A stretch of DNA of 64,000 nt from Glycocaulis alkaliphilus (GTDB lineage: Bacteria > Pseudomonadota > Alphaproteobacteria > Caulobacterales > Maricaulaceae): the NCBI RefSeq assembly GCF_004000605.1, contig NZ_CP018911.1, positions 2,461,001 through 2,525,000 on the forward strand. Direction: 5' to 3'. The notes under the pieces were generated by a model. That model ran no database searches. It was not told where the DNA came from and worked only from the letters and a program-made list of their open reading frames with translations. The position numbers and the translations under genes were made by a program. The first letter of the stretch is position 1. Every line of letters starts with the position of its first letter. Of this stretch, positions 8,444-59,455 are shown in pieces.

Positions 8444-8689
8444 TCCTCCCCCACATCCGTGGGGTCGGTTCCGCGAAAAGTCGCGGGCGCGCGTTCGCGC
8501 TTTTCAGGCCGCTGTGCGGCCTGCAAGGCCAAGGGCCGTCCGCGCTCGTGCGCGGGACATCGCAGCCCGGATGGGCTGCGGAGCCAAAGACCACGCCCGT
8601 TCGCGCTTGCGGCGGCCATAGGCCGCCGAAAAGGGCGACTGCCCGCCCGGCCTCGTGGCCGGAACCGACCCCACGGATGTGGGGGAGGA
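8444..8689. repeat. 246-bp nested palindromic element with perfect 30-bp inverted ends
   Basis: The first and last 30 bases are perfect reverse complements, each containing a CCCCAC/GTGGGG hairpin with an ATCC (left, 8449-8464) or GGAT (right, 8669-8684) loop. Between them lie several more hairpins, among them AGGCCGC/GCGGCCT, GCAGCCC-GGAT-GGGCTGC at 8561-8580 and CGGCGGCC/GGCCGCCG. The GCGGGCGCGCGTTCGCGC core shared with the other cassettes is also present. I see no credible coding sequence. It begins 9 bp after the sciP stop. Confidence 0.85.
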
Positions 8690-8703: not shown

Positions 8704-8882
8704 GGTCTCCCGTCAGTGCGGGAGACCCCGGCTGTACTGCGGGTTCCGCAATATTTCCTCGTCATTCCGGCCGCAGCGAAGCGGAGAGCCGGAACCCAGC
8801 TTTTACTAGCTCCGCAACATATTCCCGGCCTGAGCGGCACAGGCAGTCGCGGGCGCGCGTTCGCGCTTGCGGCGCTGCGCGC
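8704..8882. repeat. Run of intergenic repeat fragments between sciP and fliF
   Basis: Three pieces follow each other: a GGTCTCCCGTC/GCGGGAGACC hairpin (8704-8760) that recurs inverted at 23819-23876; a CGTCATTCCGG...CCGGAACCCAGC unit (8760-8812) shared with 42.7 and 46.7 kb; and a decayed right half of the ATCC/GGAT cassette (8811-8882) carrying GTCGCGGGCGCGCGTTCGCG. With 8444-8689 this fills nearly all of the 668-bp gap before fliF. Confidence 0.7.
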
Positions 8883-12452: not shown

Positions 12453-12816
12453 TACAACCGATCTGGACCTGCCCGATCTCAATAATGGCGGCGGCGACAC
12501 CGGACCGGAGGATTCCGGCCCCGCCGCCCTGCCCTCCCAGTCGCTGGTCGATGAATCTATCCGCACCGCAGTGGATCTCGCGCCCGTCTATGACGTGCCG
12601 GTCAATATCTCTGCCGTGCTCGGCAAGACGCATATCGACGTGAGCTCGCTGCTGAAGCTCACCTCCGGTTCGGTGCTGGAGCTCGACCGCAAGGTCGGTG
12701 AGGCCATCGACATCTACGTCAATAACCGCCTCGTGGCGCGCGGCGAGGTCGTCGTCGTCGACGACCGGCTGGGTGTGACCATGACCGAGATCATCAAGGA
12801 CGGGGATTCCGCATGA
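12445..12816 (+). CDS. fliN: Flagellar motor switch protein (FliN)
   Basis: FliN builds the lower C ring with FliM and binds FliH. The 123-residue protein has a short acidic N-terminus and a SpoA (surface presentation of antigens) domain with YDVPVNISAVLGKTHIDVSS, VLELDRKVGEAIDIYVNNRL and ARGEVVVVDDRLGVTMTEII. The start at 12445 is preceded by AAGGAG and lies inside the last codons of the fliH-like gene, indicating coupled translation. Length is typical. Confidence 0.95.
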   Translation: MADTTDLDLPDLNNGGGDTGPEDSGPAALPSQSLVDESIRTAVDLAPVYDVPVNISAVLGKTHIDVSSLLKLTSGSVLELDRKVGEAIDIYVNNRLVARGEVVVVDDRLGVTMTEIIKDGDSA

Positions 12817-14216: not shown

Positions 14217-14230
14217 GTCGAAGGTTGATG

Positions 14231-14338
14231 TCCTCCCCCGCCTGCGGGGGAGGTGTCAGCGAAGCTGACGGAGGGGGGAACTTTTCTTTTTACCCCCCTC
14301 GGCCCTCCGGGCCACTCCCCCCGTAAACGGGGGGAGAC
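14231..14338. repeat. 108-bp imperfect palindrome between flbD and flhA (CCTCCCCC family, copy 1)
   Basis: The element starts with TCCTCCCCCGCCTGCGGGGG and ends with the CCCCCCGTAAACGGGGGGAG hairpin, with GTCAGCGAAGCTGAC and GGCCCTCCGGGCC hairpins between them. Related copies occur at 19125-19250 and 50170-50281. It lies inside a flagellar gene series, just before the flhA start, so it may limit read-through or stabilise mRNA ends. Confidence 0.8.
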
Positions 14339-14365
14339 AAGAATGGAAGAAGGACAGAAAGTCCC

Positions 14366-19010: not shown

Positions 19011-19124
19011 TGAGCTGCCTCCCTCCGAGCACCTTCACATCGCCCGATCAGACGCATACTACACCCGCCAGAGGCAGGGTGGATAAGTTTTAAGAGGCCG
19101 TGATGGGGAAAGGTGAGGGGTGAT

Positions 19125-19250
19125 GTCCTCCCCCGTTTACGGGGGGTGAGGCGCGGAGCACCGAACGGCAGCGCGAGCGAGACGGAGGGGGAGAAACAAA
19201 TCCCCCCTCGCCCCTTTCAGGGGCACTCCCCCCGTAAACGGGGGGAGACA
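19125..19250. repeat. Imperfect palindromic repeat (CCTCCCCC family, copy 2)
   Basis: This unit runs from GTCCTCCCCCGTTTACGGGG to CCCCCGTAAACGGGGGGAGA with a GCCCCTTTCAGGGGC hairpin inside, matching the copies at 14.2 and 50.2 kb. Its inner part differs, with GTGAGGCGCGGAGCACCGAA in place of the GTCAGCG/CGCTGAC hairpin, so it looks like a recombinant version. Otherwise 19011-19270 holds nothing I can name. Confidence 0.75.
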
Positions 19251-19270
19251 CCGGCAGGCCAAGAGCACCC

Positions 19271-22693: not shown

Positions 22694-22860
22694 TAGTGCT
22701 CCGCGCATCCGCGCGCCGCTGCGGGCAAAAGTGCCCGGCGGCCGGTCGGCCTTGCGGACGGCGAAGCGCCGTCCGAAGAGCGCGAACGCGCGCCCGCGAC
22801 TGCCTGTGCCCGCGCAGGCGGGTATTCGCGGAACATCGCAACGCGGATGCGTTGCGAAAA
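22694..22860. repeat. ATCC/GGAT hairpin cassette, copy A
   Basis: The unit begins CTAGTGCTCCG and then CGCGC-ATCC-GCGCG (22702-22715), and ends with CGCAACGC-GGAT-GCGTTGCG (22837-22856). Inside are GGCGGCCGGTCGGCC, GGACGGCGAAGCGCCGTCC, GCGCGAACGCGCGC and CCCGCGCAGGCGGG hairpins. The right half, about 80 bp, recurs almost unchanged and inverted at 46856-46938. No coding sequence is credible here. It occupies the space between the receptor gene and its terminator. Confidence 0.85.
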
Positions 22861-23887: not shown

Positions 23888-24055
23888 ATGCTCCGCACGT
23901 CCGTGCGTCGCTGCGGGCAAAAGTGCCCGGCGGCCGGTCGGCCTTGCGGCCCCTGACGGGGCCGGACTGACTCTCCGACGCGCAGCGTCGCAAGCGCGAA
24001 CGCGCGCCCGAGCTAATGCGAGGAGCGACGGGGCGGATGCCCCGGAGCATCACTA
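23888..24055. repeat. ATCC/GGAT hairpin cassette, copy B
   Basis: The unit runs from ATGCTCCG with a CGCAC-GTCC-GTGCG hairpin (23894-23907; loop varies by one base) to CGGGGC-GGAT-GCCCCG (24027-24042) and GGAGCATCACTAAAA. The ATGCTCC/GGAGCAT ends are inverted. The centre shares GGCGGCCGGTCGGCCTTGCG, a GGCCCCTGACGGGGCC hairpin and GCGCGAACGCGCGCCCGAGC with copy C at 45.6 kb. It fills the gap after ompW and abuts the 3' end of fliJ. Confidence 0.85.
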
Positions 24056-42460: not shown

Positions 42461-42524
42461 GGCCCTTCTCTAGCAGGATTGGTGCCGGGAGGAAGCGGGG
42501 GAGTCTTTTCGCGGCCCCTCCACC

Positions 42525-42830
42525 TCGTCGTTCCCGCGCAGGCGGGAACCCAGGTTTAATGCTCACACATCCCTGCCGCGCACCTTTTAGCCTCGTGAGT
42601 TCAACTCACCGGGTCCCCGGCCTCCGAGCCGGGGTCCATTTTCCGGCCACCGGGCCTGTCCATGGGTCCCCCGTCGGGGCGGGGGGGGCATGGCAACGCC
42701 CCGCGCAACCCCTCCACTTCGTCATTCCGGGGGAGCGAAGCGACACCCGGAACCCAGCTTTTTTCAAGAACGACTGGGTTCCGGACAAGCGCTGTCGCGC
42801 TTTCCGGAATGACGAAGGGAGGGCGCCCCA
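42525..42830. repeat. CGTCATTCCGG/CCGGAATGACG repeat units upstream of clpB
   Basis: The main unit (42717-42830) runs CTTCGTCATTCCGGGGGAGC ... CCGGAACCCAGCTTTTTTC, then CTGGGTTCCGGA ... TTTCCGGAATGACGAAGG, a long two-armed palindrome also found at 8760 and 46660-46762. A smaller TTCCCGCGCAGGCGGGAA hairpin is at 42532, and a GGTCCCCGGCCTCCGAGCCGG unit lies at 42613. The 511-bp region 42461-42971 holds these repeats and the likely clpB promoter, but no gene I can support. Confidence 0.75.
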
Positions 42831-42850
42831 CCAAATTTATCCCCCCATTC

Positions 42851-42879
42851 CTTGTGTGGTCTCGTGGCCACACCTACAT
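42851..42879 (+). promoter_or_regulatory. Candidate heat-shock (sigma-32) promoter of clpB
   Basis: CTTGTGT-N15-CCTACAT fits the sigma-32 pattern CTTGAAA-N13-15-CCCCATNT at the key CTTG and CC-AT positions with acceptable spacing. It would start transcription about 80 bp before clpB, a classic heat-shock gene. Not scored against a matrix. Confidence 0.45.
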
Positions 42880-42971
42880 GCATGTCACCAGGGATGGCGG
42901 GCTGTGCCTCAAAGAGGGCGGCTCTTACCTAACCCCTTGTCTCGCTGCCCTTTTTCAGGAGACCTGAAGGC

Positions 42972-45590
<2,619 letters not shown>

Positions 45591-45596
45591 AGAGGT

Positions 45597-45776
45597 CTTT
45601 TAGCGCCGCAGCCCATCCGGGCTGCGGTGTTCCGCGAAAAGTCGCGGGCGGCCGGTCGGCCTTGCGGCCCCTGACGGGGCCGGGCTGGCACCCCGGCGCG
45701 CAGCGCCGCAAGCGCGAACGCGCGCCCGAGCTCGTGCGAGGCGCGACGCGCGGATGCGCGGAGCACCACTAAAAAG
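45597..45776. repeat. ATCC/GGAT hairpin cassette, copy C (best-bounded)
   Basis: The unit is framed by CTTTTAG (45597) and CTAAAAAG (45769-45776). Inside these are CCGCAGCCC-ATCC-GGGCTGCGG (45606-45627) at the left and CGCGC-GGAT-GCGCG (45747-45760) at the right. Between them lie GGCGGCCGGTCGGCCTTGCG, a GGCCCCTGACGGGGCC hairpin, a CGGCGCGCAGCGCCG hairpin and GCGCGAACGCGCGCCCGAGC. It starts 7 bp after the clpB stop and may act as its transcript end. Confidence 0.88.
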
Positions 45777-45858
45777 ACGCCCCTTCCCGTCCGGGCAGAG
45801 TCGCGCTTATCTCTCCTGACCAGAGGGCGCCAGACGCCCCGGACGGGAGGAGACGACC

Positions 45859-46278
45859 ATGTATCAATCCATGATGGTGCCGCTGCTGGTGCTGGTATGC
45901 TGGACGCTGGTGATGTGGGTGTGGATGTATGCCACGCGCATTCCGGCCATGCAGAAGGCCAAGATCAACCCGGCACGCATGAAGGAAAAGTCCGAGATGG
46001 ACGTGCTGCCGCGCGGCGTGCGTCAGATTGCGGACAATCATAACCATCTGCATGAACAGCCGGTGATTTTCTACGCGCTCGTCACCTACAGCCATCTCGT
46101 TGGCGTGGGTGATGCCATCAATATCGGCTTTGCCTGGACCTATGTGATCCTGCGCATCATCCACTCGCTGGTGCAGAGCACGATCAACTTCATTCCCTTA
46201 CGCTTTGGCATCTACACGCTGGCGACGCTCTGCCTGTTTGTCATCGCTATCCGCAATCTGATAGCCTTGTCGGTATGA
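45859..46278 (+). CDS. MAPEG-family membrane protein
   Basis: MAPEG proteins are small four-helix membrane proteins, some with glutathione transferase or peroxidase activity. The 139-residue product has helices at the start (MVPLLVLVCWTLVMWVWMYA), an internal NHNHLHEQPVIFYALVTYSH stretch with the Glu/Pro family pattern, and two C-terminal helices (YVILRIIHSLVQSTI, FGIYTLATLCLFVIAIRNLI). A GGGAGGAG ribosome-binding site is 7 bp upstream. The stop overlaps the next gene's start (ATGA), so the two are coupled. Catalytic activity cannot be judged. Confidence 0.82.
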   Translation: MYQSMMVPLLVLVCWTLVMWVWMYATRIPAMQKAKINPARMKEKSEMDVLPRGVRQIADNHNHLHEQPVIFYALVTYSHLVGVGDAINIGFAWTYVILRIIHSLVQSTINFIPLRFGIYTLATLCLFVIAIRNLIALSV

Positions 46279-46625
46279 GCCTTACTGTATACGGACTGAA
46301 AAATTGCGAGACCTGCCGCAAGGCAATGACCGCATTGAGCGAAGGCGGGAGAAATCCCGCCTTCGTTGACATCCGCGCCGAGCCTTCCGTGGCCGGACTG
46401 ATCCCCGGCTGGATCAGGGCTGTGGGTGAAGCAAAAATCGTCAACCGCGCCTCGATGACCTGGCGCAAGCTTTCTGACGAAGACAAGGCAAGGGCTGACG
46501 ATGCGGGCAAACTCGCTGGCCTGCTCGATGAACACCGCACGCTTATAAAGCGCCCTGTGATCGTTACGGGAAGCACGGTCCATGTCGGCTGGACGAAGGC
46601 TGTGCAGGCTGAATTGGGGGTCTGA
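46275..46625 (+). CDS. ArsC/Spx-family thioredoxin-fold protein
   Basis: The 116-residue protein belongs to the arsenate reductase C/Spx family, with SLTVYGLKNCETCRKAMTAL giving an N-terminal CxxC. A conserved helix (ASMTWRKLSDEDKARADDAG) and the C-terminal IKRPVIVTGSTVHVGWT motif follow; the RP-V loop is the family's cis-proline region. Members include YffB-like proteins of unknown role, so true arsenate reduction is not implied. It overlaps the MAPEG gene by 4 bp. Confidence 0.82.
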   Translation: MSLTVYGLKNCETCRKAMTALSEGGRNPAFVDIRAEPSVAGLIPGWIRAVGEAKIVNRASMTWRKLSDEDKARADDAGKLAGLLDEHRTLIKRPVIVTGSTVHVGWTKAVQAELGV

Positions 46626-46659
46626 TCTCCGGGTTCCGCCGAGCTGCCCTGCTGTCCCA

Positions 46660-46994
46660 CTTTCGTCATTCCAGAAGCGGCGTCAGCCGCTATCTGGAAC
46701 CCAGAGTTTCTATCGAAAAGCTGGGTTCCGGGTCTGCGCTTCGCTCCGCCCGGAATGACGAAGGGGAAATGCGCGGGGGAGCCATACTCGCCACAAGCTA
46801 TCAGCCTGTCATCCTCCGGTCGCGAAGCGATCCGGGGGACCCATGCCTCTTTAGTTCCGCAACGCATCCGCGTTGCGATGTTCCGCGAATACCCGCCTGC
46901 GCGGGCACAGGCAGTCGCGGGCGCGCGTTCGCGCTTTTGGGCCGCTTGGCAACTCTCAGGCATGGGTGGCCCGGATAAACCGGGCCATGACAGG
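46660..46994. repeat. Composite of three intergenic repeat families
   Basis: First is a TCGTCATTCCAGAAGCGGCG ... CCCGGAATGACGAAGG palindrome (46660-46762). Then comes an inverted copy of the right half of cassette A (46851-46938), with CGCAACGC-ATCC-GCGTTGCG at 46858-46877. Last is a 42-bp segment (46953-46994) whose exact reverse complement occurs at 52056-52097. The rest of 46626-47098 holds a CCCCGTTTTCACGGGG hairpin (near 47034-47050) also present in the element at 59320. No gene is evident. Confidence 0.8.
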
Positions 46995-47098
46995 GATGTG
47001 ACTTTCCGTTGAATGTGCCTTGGCTCTCCGGTTCCCCGTTTTCACGGGGACAGGCGGGGCCGGAGACCCCGGTGAGATGGGCCAGCCGGGAAGAAACC

Positions 47099-48238
47099 CT
47101 ACTCCGCCGCAGCTGGCCTCTCGCGCATCGCGCGCATTTTGGCGGCTTTGTCTTCCACCGCAGCGACGATGCGTTCGATCATCGTCTCGTTGGAGACTTT
47201 TTCGGTCTGCTGACCGGCAAAATAGAGCATGCCCGCGCCCTTGCCGCCGCCGGTGAACCCCAGATCGGTATAGGCTGCCTCGCCGGGGCCGTTGACCACG
47301 CAGCCAATGATGGAGAGCGAGATCGGCTCGGAGATGTGCGCCAGCCGCGCTTCCAGCGCTTCGACGGTGCGGATCACGTCAAAGCCCTGACGCGCGCAGG
47401 ACGGGCAGGCGATGATGTTCACCCCGCGCGTGCGCAGGCCCAGCGCTTTCAGCATGTCAAAGCCTGCGCGGATTTCCTCCACAGGCTCGGCCGAGAGCGA
47501 GACGCGGATCGTGTCGCCAATCCCGGCCCAGAGTAGCGAGCCCATGCCGATGGCGGACTTGATCGTGCCCGAGCGAAGCCCCCCGGCCTCTGTCACGCCC
47601 AGATGCAGCGGCGCATCGGTCGCTTCAGCCAGCATCTGATAGGCGGCGACGGTGAGGAAGAGATCAGACGCCTTCACCGAAATCTTGTATTCGTGAAAGC
47701 CCAGATCATCGAGAATGCGGGCGTGACCCAGCGCGCTTTCCACCATCGCGTCGGGGCAGGGCTCACCATATTTTTCAAGCAGTTCGCGCTCCAGCGATCC
47801 GGCATTGACCCCGATGCGGATGGAGCAGCCATTGTCGCGCGCCGCCGAGACGACCTCCTTCACGCGCGCCATGGAGCCGATATTGCCCGGATTGATGCGC
47901 AGGCACGCCGCGCCGGCCTCTGCCGCCTCGATGCCGCGCTTGTAGTGGAAATGAATGTCGGCGACGAGCGGCACTTTTGCCTCGCGCGCAATCGTGCGGA
48001 AGGCCGCCGTTGAGTCTTCATCCGGGCAGGAGACGCGCACAATGTCTGCGCCCGCCTCTTCAAGCCCGCGTATCTGGTTGATCGTCGCGCGCGCGTCGGA
48101 TGTGGGCGTGTTGGTCATGGACTGCACGGAGATGGGCGCATCCCCGCCCACCTCGACAGACCCGACACGGATTTTGCGCGAGACGCGCCGGTCAATCGCC
48201 CGCCAGGGCCTGACCTTGGTGTGATCCTCGACCGCCAT
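47099..48238 (-). CDS. ispG: 4-hydroxy-3-methylbut-2-enyl diphosphate synthase (IspG/GcpE)
   Basis: IspG converts methylerythritol cyclodiphosphate to HMBPP in the MEP pathway of isoprenoid synthesis using a [4Fe-4S] cluster. The 379-residue protein shows the TIM-barrel start ([20 protein letters not shown]) and [20 protein letters not shown]. The cluster cysteines lie in [14 protein letters not shown] and [20 protein letters not shown]. The family length is normal. It is transcribed toward the repeat region and is 81 bp downstream of the DUF4167 gene. Confidence 0.96.
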
Positions 48239-48319
48239 GAACCTGCTCCTTCGCGCCTCGCCCCTACATATAGGAGCGATGTGACGAGGTGAAGGCGGAG
48301 CAGGCGTCGGGCATCCAGA

Positions 48320-50119: not shown

Positions 50120-50169
50120 GTGAGCATTTCCAGTGGTGAAACCCCGGGCGAGCCGCGTCTCCTTGTTTT

Positions 50170-50281
50170 CCTCCCCCGTTTACGGGGGAGGTGTCAGCGC
50201 AGCTGACGGAGGGGGGAAATTTTTCTTTTCAAAATCCCCCCCTCGGTCCTTCGGACCACTCCCCCCGTAAACGGGGGGAGA
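50170..50281. repeat. 112-bp imperfect palindrome between prfA and prmC (CCTCCCCC family, copy 3)
   Basis: CCTCCCCCGTTTACGGGGGA begins the unit and CCCCCCGTAAACGGGGGGAG ends it, with GTCAGCGCAGCTGAC and GGTCCTTCGGACC hairpins inside. It is closest to the copy at 14231-14338; the GGCCCTCCGGGCC hairpin there and GGTCCTTCGGACC here differ by paired changes that keep the stem. Confidence 0.82.
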
Positions 50282-50331
50282 AAACCGGTAGCCCGGACAC
50301 CCGCCTGCGCGGGAACGACGACCCGAAGGTT

Positions 50332-59319: not shown

Positions 59320-59455
59320 GGGTCTCCCGTCGGTGCGGGAGACCCCGGAGATATTGGCTTCATTGCTTCTAGATTGCCTGCCGGTGAAAGCGTTGACCTC
59401 TCCGCCGGGGTCCCCCGCCCCGCCTGTCCCCGTGAAAACGGGGAACGGGGGACCC
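59320..59455. repeat. Paired-hairpin GGTCTCCC element, subtype B copy 1
   Basis: GGGTCTCCCGTCGGTGCGGG opens it and CGGGGGACCC closes it. The core (GGAGATATTGGCTTCATTGC ... GTGAAAGCGTTGACCTCTCC) differs from subtype A but matches the copy at 59805. An extra CCCCGTGAAAACGGGG hairpin is inserted near the right end; it also occurs at about 47034-47050. The element abuts the end of the GIY-YIG gene. Confidence 0.8.

Follow-up and report, generated by a model that had tools for sequence, protein, structure and literature searches.

The facing halves of the palindromic cassettes described here are nearly always unlike each other, both in the type of their ends and in the class of an inner stem, and the constraint looks relational, since what counts seems to be that the two are different and not which of them carries which type. 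This result is new with respect to the original prediction, which had recognised, from the letters alone, a dispersed hairpin cassette with a fixed ATCC/GGAT loop and freely changing stems in the window, that is, the whole stretch of 64,000 nucleotides of Glycocaulis alkaliphilus DNA analysed here. In the window the family is represented by three complete cassettes, one compound relative and two half-copies, and a second reading of their positions, hairpins and stems found all of them as claimed. The features are the following, in window positions.

45597..45776, + strand: cassette C, a 161-bp core plus T/A-rich termini, end types A...B
45606..45627, + strand: hp1 of cassette C, A type, CCGCAGCCC-ATCC-GGGCTGCGG
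45632..45647, + strand: hp2 of cassette C, CCGCGA-AAAG-TCGCGG, paired in the fold prediction
45650..45661, + strand: left hp3 of cassette C (locus L058), class GGCC, GGCC-GGTC-GGCC
45666..45681, + strand: left hp4 of cassette C, GGCCCC-TGAC-GGGGCC, by eye
45695..45707, + strand: right hp4 of cassette C, GGCGC-GCA-GCGCC, unlike the left hp4, by eye
45712..45723, + strand: right hp3 of cassette C (L058), class GCGC, unlike the left hp3
45747..45760, + strand: hp1 of cassette C, B type, CGCGC-GGAT-GCGCG
22694..22860, - strand: cassette A, end types B (hp2 with an AAAAG loop)...A
23888..24055, + strand: cassette B, end types B...B, the sole like-type pair among 40
8444..8689, + strand: compound relative, with a D end, an inner A end (8551-8588) and a D end
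46851..46938, + strand: half-cassette, A end, within a TGTCATCC..GGACCCATGCC / GGCATGGGT..CCATGACA repeat dimer (L058)
8811..8882, + strand: degenerate half-copy

The termini noted previously for cassette C are both there, CTTTTAG at 45597-45603 and CTAAAAAG at 45769-45776, and the outer arms of the compound relative are perfect over 30 bp.

From outside to inside, a half-cassette consists of a T-rich tract, hp1 (whose loop is mostly ATCC), hp2, hp3 and often hp4, joined by nearly invariant linkers. Specifically, three end types can be told apart: the A end reads ..TTCCGC-AACG/AGCC-C-ATCC-..-GCGATGTTCCGCG, the B end ..GATGCTC-stem-ATCC-stem-TCGC.. and the D end ..TGTCCTC-stem-ATCC-stem-TCGGTTCCG. 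The T-tract is followed mostly by [AG]G[TC]T on A ends (33), by TTTT on B ends (35) and by pyrimidines on D ends (8). Most of the 40 cassettes collected are near 107, 138, 162 or 186 bp long, with others at 115, 133-137, 142 and 157 bp and one composite (L026) at 284 bp; the steps of about 24 nt agree, by eye, with the number of hairpin modules. Two B ends, one near position 1500 of L013 and one in L044, have a T-tract that shares bases with the stop codon of the upstream gene (..TTTTAA), and the D-like ends of L036, L037 and L057, in genus g8, have in common a tail, AGGATCAACATGA, which might contain a start codon.

The comparison of facing halves was carried out on pairs of inward-facing ends 40-320 bp apart, with exact duplicates removed (n=40); 16 of 48 stretches obtained by pattern scan, which belong to other taxa such as Corynebacterium and are probable chance matches, were excluded before counting. 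The pairs of end types were AB in 30 cassettes, AD in 5, BD in 4 and BB in 1. Like end types occurred in 1 of 40 cassettes, compared to 16.0 expected, and none of 20,000 shuffles gave so low a count; for the class of hp3, 1 of 32 scored cassettes was like (8 were unscored), compared to 13.0 expected and with none of 100,000 shuffles as low; these large-sample values overstate the effect, because the 40 cassettes are related copies, and small P values overstate it as well, because many loci were gathered with an A-B query or with the A-end pattern. The lone cassette with like hp3 classes is the composite L026, and 3 of the 64 hp3 picks (L003 left, L005 left and L180 right) are, by eye, a neighbouring hairpin instead of the exact hp3. 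The hp3 class is not tied to the end type: A ends carry GGCC (14), GCGC (9) or GGGC (3), B ends GCGC (15), GGCC (11) or GCCC (2), and D ends GCGC (5), GGCC (2) or GGGC (1). The inner stem of hp1 was like in 3 of 40 cassettes, compared to 7.7 expected (P 0.028), and in these three (L008, L032 and L101) AGCCC stands on both the A and the B end.

When distinct arrangements were counted once and L026 was excluded, none of 11 was like, compared to 3.0 expected (P 0.023). In addition, local scores between the two halves of the same cassette (39 cassettes, L026 excluded) had a median of 10 and a maximum of 20.5, compared to 17 and 83 for cross pairs and 11.5 and 56 for cross pairs with unlike end types. 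The contrast comes mostly from the end type, and the real scores were also lower than those obtained by re-pairing inside end-type classes (P 0.0004). On contiguous stretches, namely the window and its syntenic neighbours, which contain 10 of the 40 cassettes, 1 of the 10 was like-typed, the B..B cassette at 23888-24055, whose hp1, hp2 and hp3 stems are nonetheless unlike between the halves.

The prominence given to the ATCC/GGAT loop was borne out by a count of perfect tetraloop hairpins in the window. With stems of at least 5 bp this loop was the commonest (10 of 180, followed by CTGC with 8), as it was with stems of at least 6 bp (7 of 64, followed by TAAA with 6), while at 7 bp or more it was equal to TAAA, with 4 each of 21. 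One of the ten hairpins, at 12505-12518, is without relative in the window and is probably a chance occurrence. The copy with a GTCC loop lies at 23894-23907.

The idea of a constant loop serving as the recognised part gained no support from the sequences. On 69 ends of type A, for which a 4-nt loop and an outer CGCA with at most one mismatch were required, the loop was other than ATCC in 8 and one inner pair was broken in 7 (4 A:C, 2 G:T and 1 A:G), so that loops and stems are about equally variable within one allele. The loop is also inverted in two copies, sometimes holds inserts, and is conserved no better than the stem. The inverted loops were found in L070 and in L141 compared to L010, the latter with its arms matched to 8 bp; template switching is able to produce such loop inversions and to restore arms, as described in part of PMC8794818.

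The description of the stems as freely changing was too strong, since each end type has few stem alleles. The inner stem of the 69 A ends has essentially two, ACGC/GCGT and GCCC/GGGC; B ends carry CGCAC, AGCCC, CGCGC, CGGGGC or CGCCC, with AGGCCC found only in another genus (L050), and D ends carry CCCCAC, CCCCGC or CCCTGC. This amounts to at least 11 stems around an ATCC-kind loop (2 on A, 6 on B and 3 on D ends). Pairing in the family as a whole exceeds chance: among 43 distinct 14-mers, which still included loop-inserted copies and two apparent chance matches, 71% of arm positions were paired, compared to a mean of 44% and a maximum of 55% in 5000 shuffles. The proposal that both sides of a stem change together in every case does not stand for one end type, as the arms are unpaired in 5 of 14 D ends, and therefore not every hp1 needs to fold. 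From the level of pairing and the short lists of alleles, we conclude that the pairing is real and that the stems are few and discrete. Differences with both arms matched occur at orthologous sites, L013 having AGCCC/GGGCT where L044 has CGCCC/GGGCG (an A:T pair compared to C:G), and three successive hairpins are unlike between the orthologous sites L025 and L129. The fold z-scores of 45592-45782 were -3.7 for the RNA of the + strand, -2.9 for the DNA of the + strand and -2.9 for the RNA of the - strand.

Further copies were found in a genome-wide search, cassette C giving 55 blastn matches (E<=0.001) in its own 3.02-Mb genome. Matches were obtained in 14 of the 61 genomes searched, including all six Glycocaulis genomes, which had the strongest scores; those outside Glycocaulis were mostly weak and limited to short core hairpins. 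Copies are also present in the metagenome-assembled genome Oceanicaulis sp. HLUCCA04, where locus L124 is a match to L055 of genome G005; Alkalicaulis has one cassette copy, and B- and D-like ends occur in another genus of the same family (L036, L037, L050 and L057). These data agree with the description of a palindromic element that is dispersed and non-autonomous and moves over evolutionary time.

Longer aligned parts of the window are about 75-96% identical to G001 (G. albus CGMCC 1.12766), G002 (a Glycocaulis metagenome-assembled genome) and G003, and the alignments break largely at intergenic repeats. The empty sites anticipated in relatives exist, orthologous spacers being often without cassette or with other palindromic repeats. 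Specifically, the spacer orthologous to 45597-45776 has no cassette in G001 and G003, which carry other palindromic repeats there, and the portion of it covered in G002 has none either. The right end at 24029-24055 and its flank were found in G001 and G002 with a different left half. At the 8444-8689 site, G000 and G003 have a D-type compound, while G001 has a single 32-nt ATCC hairpin. The D..D compound of G000 has GTGGGG repeats at both edges, and the lone G001 hairpin is possibly what is left of a collapsed compound, the direction of the change being unrooted. The opposite event, insertion of the 8444 cassette into the G001 hairpin, was considered and set aside, as loss by slippage between the GTGGGG repeats fits the junction better, again with the direction unrooted. 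In G003 the D-type compound at this site is partly duplicated in tandem (L075, 4900-5420). Moreover, pieces a few kb long differ in orientation or position from one species to the next (42500-48300 compared to G003, loci L075-L078, and to G001 and G002), with breakpoints in or near palindromic repeats.

A second, smaller repeat is nested within the first. The mini-hairpin is a 22-24-nt unit, TCCCCG..CGGGGACAGG, of which variants with other stems exist; it sits in the loop of ATCC hairpins (between AT and CC), in the hp2 loop and in the loops of other REP-like hairpins, so that its hosts include several unrelated hairpin families. The insert of the hp2 loop of cassette A recurs in further copies. 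In the window the mini-hairpin was located at the following positions.

22802..22824, - strand: mini-hairpin, variant TACCCGCCTGCGCGGGCACAGGC, in the hp2 loop of cassette A
46890..46912, + strand: mini-hairpin, variant TACCCGCCTGCGCGGGCACAGGC, in the hp2 loop of the half-cassette 46851-46938
47033..47055, + strand: mini-hairpin TCCCCGTTTTCACGGGGACAGGC in the loop of a GGCTCTCC-type hairpin (L058)
59422..59444, - strand: mini-hairpin in the loop of a GGTCCCCC-type hairpin

A stricter pattern, which leaves out the TACCCGCCTGCGCGGGCACAGGC variant, was used for the genome and flank counts. It was found 11, 13, 8, 17, 0 and 4 times in G000 to G005 and in 2 of 35 other genomes, while the reversed control pattern was found in none of 41. 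Directly around the mini-hairpin, a host stem paired perfectly over 5 bp or more was present in 24 of 39 copies (15 were without), compared to 25 of 468 shifted controls, and one of at least 7 bp in 18 of 39 compared to none of 468. Orthologous sites with and without the unit were observed beside 8704 (G003 compared to G001 and G000), and hp2 of L033 and L005 differ in the same way for a variant insert. In G000, a GC-rich mini-hairpin with CAGG at its end interrupts the ATCC loop of an A-type hairpin near 5210 of L090 (reverse strand).

The use of palindromes as insertion targets recalls the REP-targeting elements IS1397, ISKpn1 and IS621, which, unlike the gene-less 22-24-nt hairpin inserted here, are full IS elements (PMC1525189, in part); our literature search on nested or loop-inserted palindromes found nothing related. 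Two further repeats lie close to the cassettes or elsewhere in the window. Dimers of the form TGTCATCC..CCCATGCC/GGCATGGG..CCATGACA have a half-cassette in the linker in 5 of the 6 found (L014, L025, L030, L058 and L147), a count behind which most loci were selected by a cassette match. A separate, copy-variable repeat of CCCCCCGTAAACGGGGGG hairpins with a TAAA loop occupies 14225-14340, 19124-19251 and 50163-50284.

We favour, with confidence about evenly poised, the reading of the cassette as a REP/BIME-like, non-autonomous mosaic heterodimer whose like-with-like, long-palindrome forms are lost. The cassette would be a head-to-head heterodimer of two hairpin arrays with few stem alleles at each hairpin position, and linker recombination together with template switching within hairpins would supply the matched arms. 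Like-with-like cassettes would form almost perfect palindromes, some 110-190 bp long, and would be liable to be lost through slippage deletion or through damage at replication or in RNA, and the survivors would keep local hairpins and not global self-complementarity. Movement of the element, any RNA and the enforcing process are what we infer here. Against the loss model, no like-with-like cassette was caught being lost, the change in G001 at 8444 is unrooted, and the P values are just 0.023 at the level of arrangements and 0.028 for the hp1 stem.

SbcD, the usual palindrome nuclease, had no match in six of six genomes (G000-G003, G037 and G038, of which four are Glycocaulis), compared to matches in 13 of 14 controls; SbcC gave matches below the cut-off in three of the six, a cut-off passed by only 1 of the 14 controls. 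SbcCD thus seems unavailable as the enforcer, and this form of the anti-palindrome idea was not adopted. Clearance of like-with-like forms probably follows another route, and loss of SbcCD might be the reason why the lineage tolerates so many palindromes.

A broader version, which we hold only tentatively, would see two tiers of hairpin parasites in this lineage without detectable SbcD, the unlike-mirror element and the mini-hairpin, which would spread into the single-stranded loops of this element and of other REP-like hairpins, both moved by a hypothetical enzyme that acts on hairpin loops and is not of the Y1 kind. The tyrosine (RAYT/IS200-like) transposase suggested at the outset did not materialise: the Y1_Tnp domain (PF01797) had no match in six of six Glycocaulis genomes, compared to positives in 5 of 14 controls. 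IS110 was likewise discarded as a general mover, its DEDD domain being found in only one of four Glycocaulis genomes tested.

An RNA element is somewhat less likely still. According to this explanation the cassettes would be transcribed and form structures at the 3' ends of mRNAs or tRNAs, with a part in RNase control; selection on RNA would keep the pairing, and unlike halves would avoid one long double-stranded RNA. The location of the cassettes speaks for it to some extent: of 28 loci, 26 were classified, with 12 in convergent, 11 in co-directional and 3 in divergent spacers, compared to 16, 25 and 17 among 58 baseline spacers of at least 100 bp, although the ORF calls are rough and the difference in context is modest. 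The shortage of divergent spacers is joined by three tRNA-Leu genes (anticodons tag, caa and taa), which in G000 and in each relative read are directly followed by cassette ends starting within about a dozen nt of the tRNA 3' end (L005/L033, L007/L119 and L021/L055/L133), the end type being the same or different between relatives. The cassette also folds better than shuffled sequences, but both strands fold about equally, and the few broken inner pairs (7, a small sample) show no preference for G:U, with 2 G:T, 4 A:C and 1 A:G. No U-tract was found after the outermost hairpin on either strand, A-rich DNA being there instead; since T-rich DNA precedes the hairpins and A-rich DNA comes behind them, the cassette has no intrinsic U-tract terminator. 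Rfam gave no match at the gathering score in the 64-kb window, which weighs against the RNA reading. By analogy with many REPs, any effect of the cassette on the upstream gene is probably incidental.

Less probable again is a MITE-like transposon with fixed left and right ends, in which A, B and D would be bound by a transposase and the unlike pairing would be an end requirement. The dominance of A-B pairs (30 of 40) and the presence or absence of cassettes between species suit this explanation, but D pairs with A as well as with B, and the class of hp3 varies on both A and B ends and is still unlike across the halves. The termini offer it short inverted T/A-rich sequences, which are all that is common to A, B and D ends as terminal inverted repeats. 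Among 38 flank pairs, whose true ends are undefined and from which L026 and the 8443 cassette were excluded, shared strings were slightly longer than in cross pairs (mean 4.74 compared to 4.44; 7 nt or more in 3 of 38 compared to 3.8% of cross pairs), and no clear or consistent target-site duplication was found. The Y1_Tnp and IS110 searches also stand against it.

The weakest candidate, and an improbable one, is neutral palindrome turnover by template switching and module shuffling with no selection, the unlike halves being a founder effect: the few stem alleles and the two copies with an inverted loop, in one of which the arms match further out, of the sort that template switching can produce (PMC8794818), are in its favour, but none of the eleven distinct end/stem arrangements scored is like-paired, and a founder effect would be needed separately for end type and hp3, and in several end-type combinations.

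The heterodimer reading finds its nearest parallels among known bacterial repeats. The cassettes show traits of REP-like dimers, being inverted, small, perfect hairpins, intergenic and in many copies, with a modest bias to positions downstream of genes. Like GTAG REPs, BIMEs and REPINs they are mosaics of inverted palindromes with preserved pairing (PMC2817692, in part), and the preservation of palindromes despite changed stems had already been described there for REPs; unlike the GTAG REPs and REPINs with their RAYT, the cassette ends have no GTAG tag, and Y1 is without match in the six genomes. The CGTC-tagged REPs are similar in being mostly alphaproteobacterial intergenic palindromes, arranged as head-to-head dimers, in several families as heterodimers, downstream of genes and without a dedicated transposase (Di Nocera 2013, PMC3733652, in part). 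The cassettes differ from them in having neither CGTC tag nor CCA tail, in having several hairpins per half and an ATCC loop, and in being unlike at more than one mirrored position. By eye, the CGTC/TGTC tag, the AT at the start of the stem and the CCA tail are absent from A, B and D ends; D ends do begin with TGTCC, but without AT or CCA. Repeats resembling the CGTC type are neighbours and hosts of cassettes. Rhizobia have the RIME, palindromic intergenic mosaic elements, which the cassettes resemble in this general character. The CIR repeats of Caulobacter and Brucella are also alphaproteobacterial and intergenic, about 110 bp long, with two stem-loop arms and a linker; their loops, however, carry GANTC (PMC2229807, in part), a motif present in 1 of 39 cassettes. 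In our literature search, to which most subscription papers were external, no paper was found that joins Glycocaulis, repeat and intergenic.

For heterodimers and SbcCD the relevant paper is PMC3733652, which reports that most REP families prefer heterodimers, says that an obvious explanation is lacking, and suggests for CGTC REPs that the heterodimeric form may be spared both the clearing of palindromes and attack by RNase. Protection by heterodimer formation has therefore been raised before for CGTC REPs, and the cassettes are a sharper case of it, at several levels. The unlike rule applies both to end types and to inner stem classes, and neither class is restricted to A or to B ends, so that the rule is directly testable, and the family offers a strong natural test of heterodimer preference by means of engineered like and unlike cassettes. 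In addition, hairpin loops are seen to hold smaller hairpins as inserts, and compensated stems in repeats need not imply selection on RNA. In conclusion, if the unlike-mirror rule is true, it would allow the element to retain numerous short palindromes without turning into a single long one.
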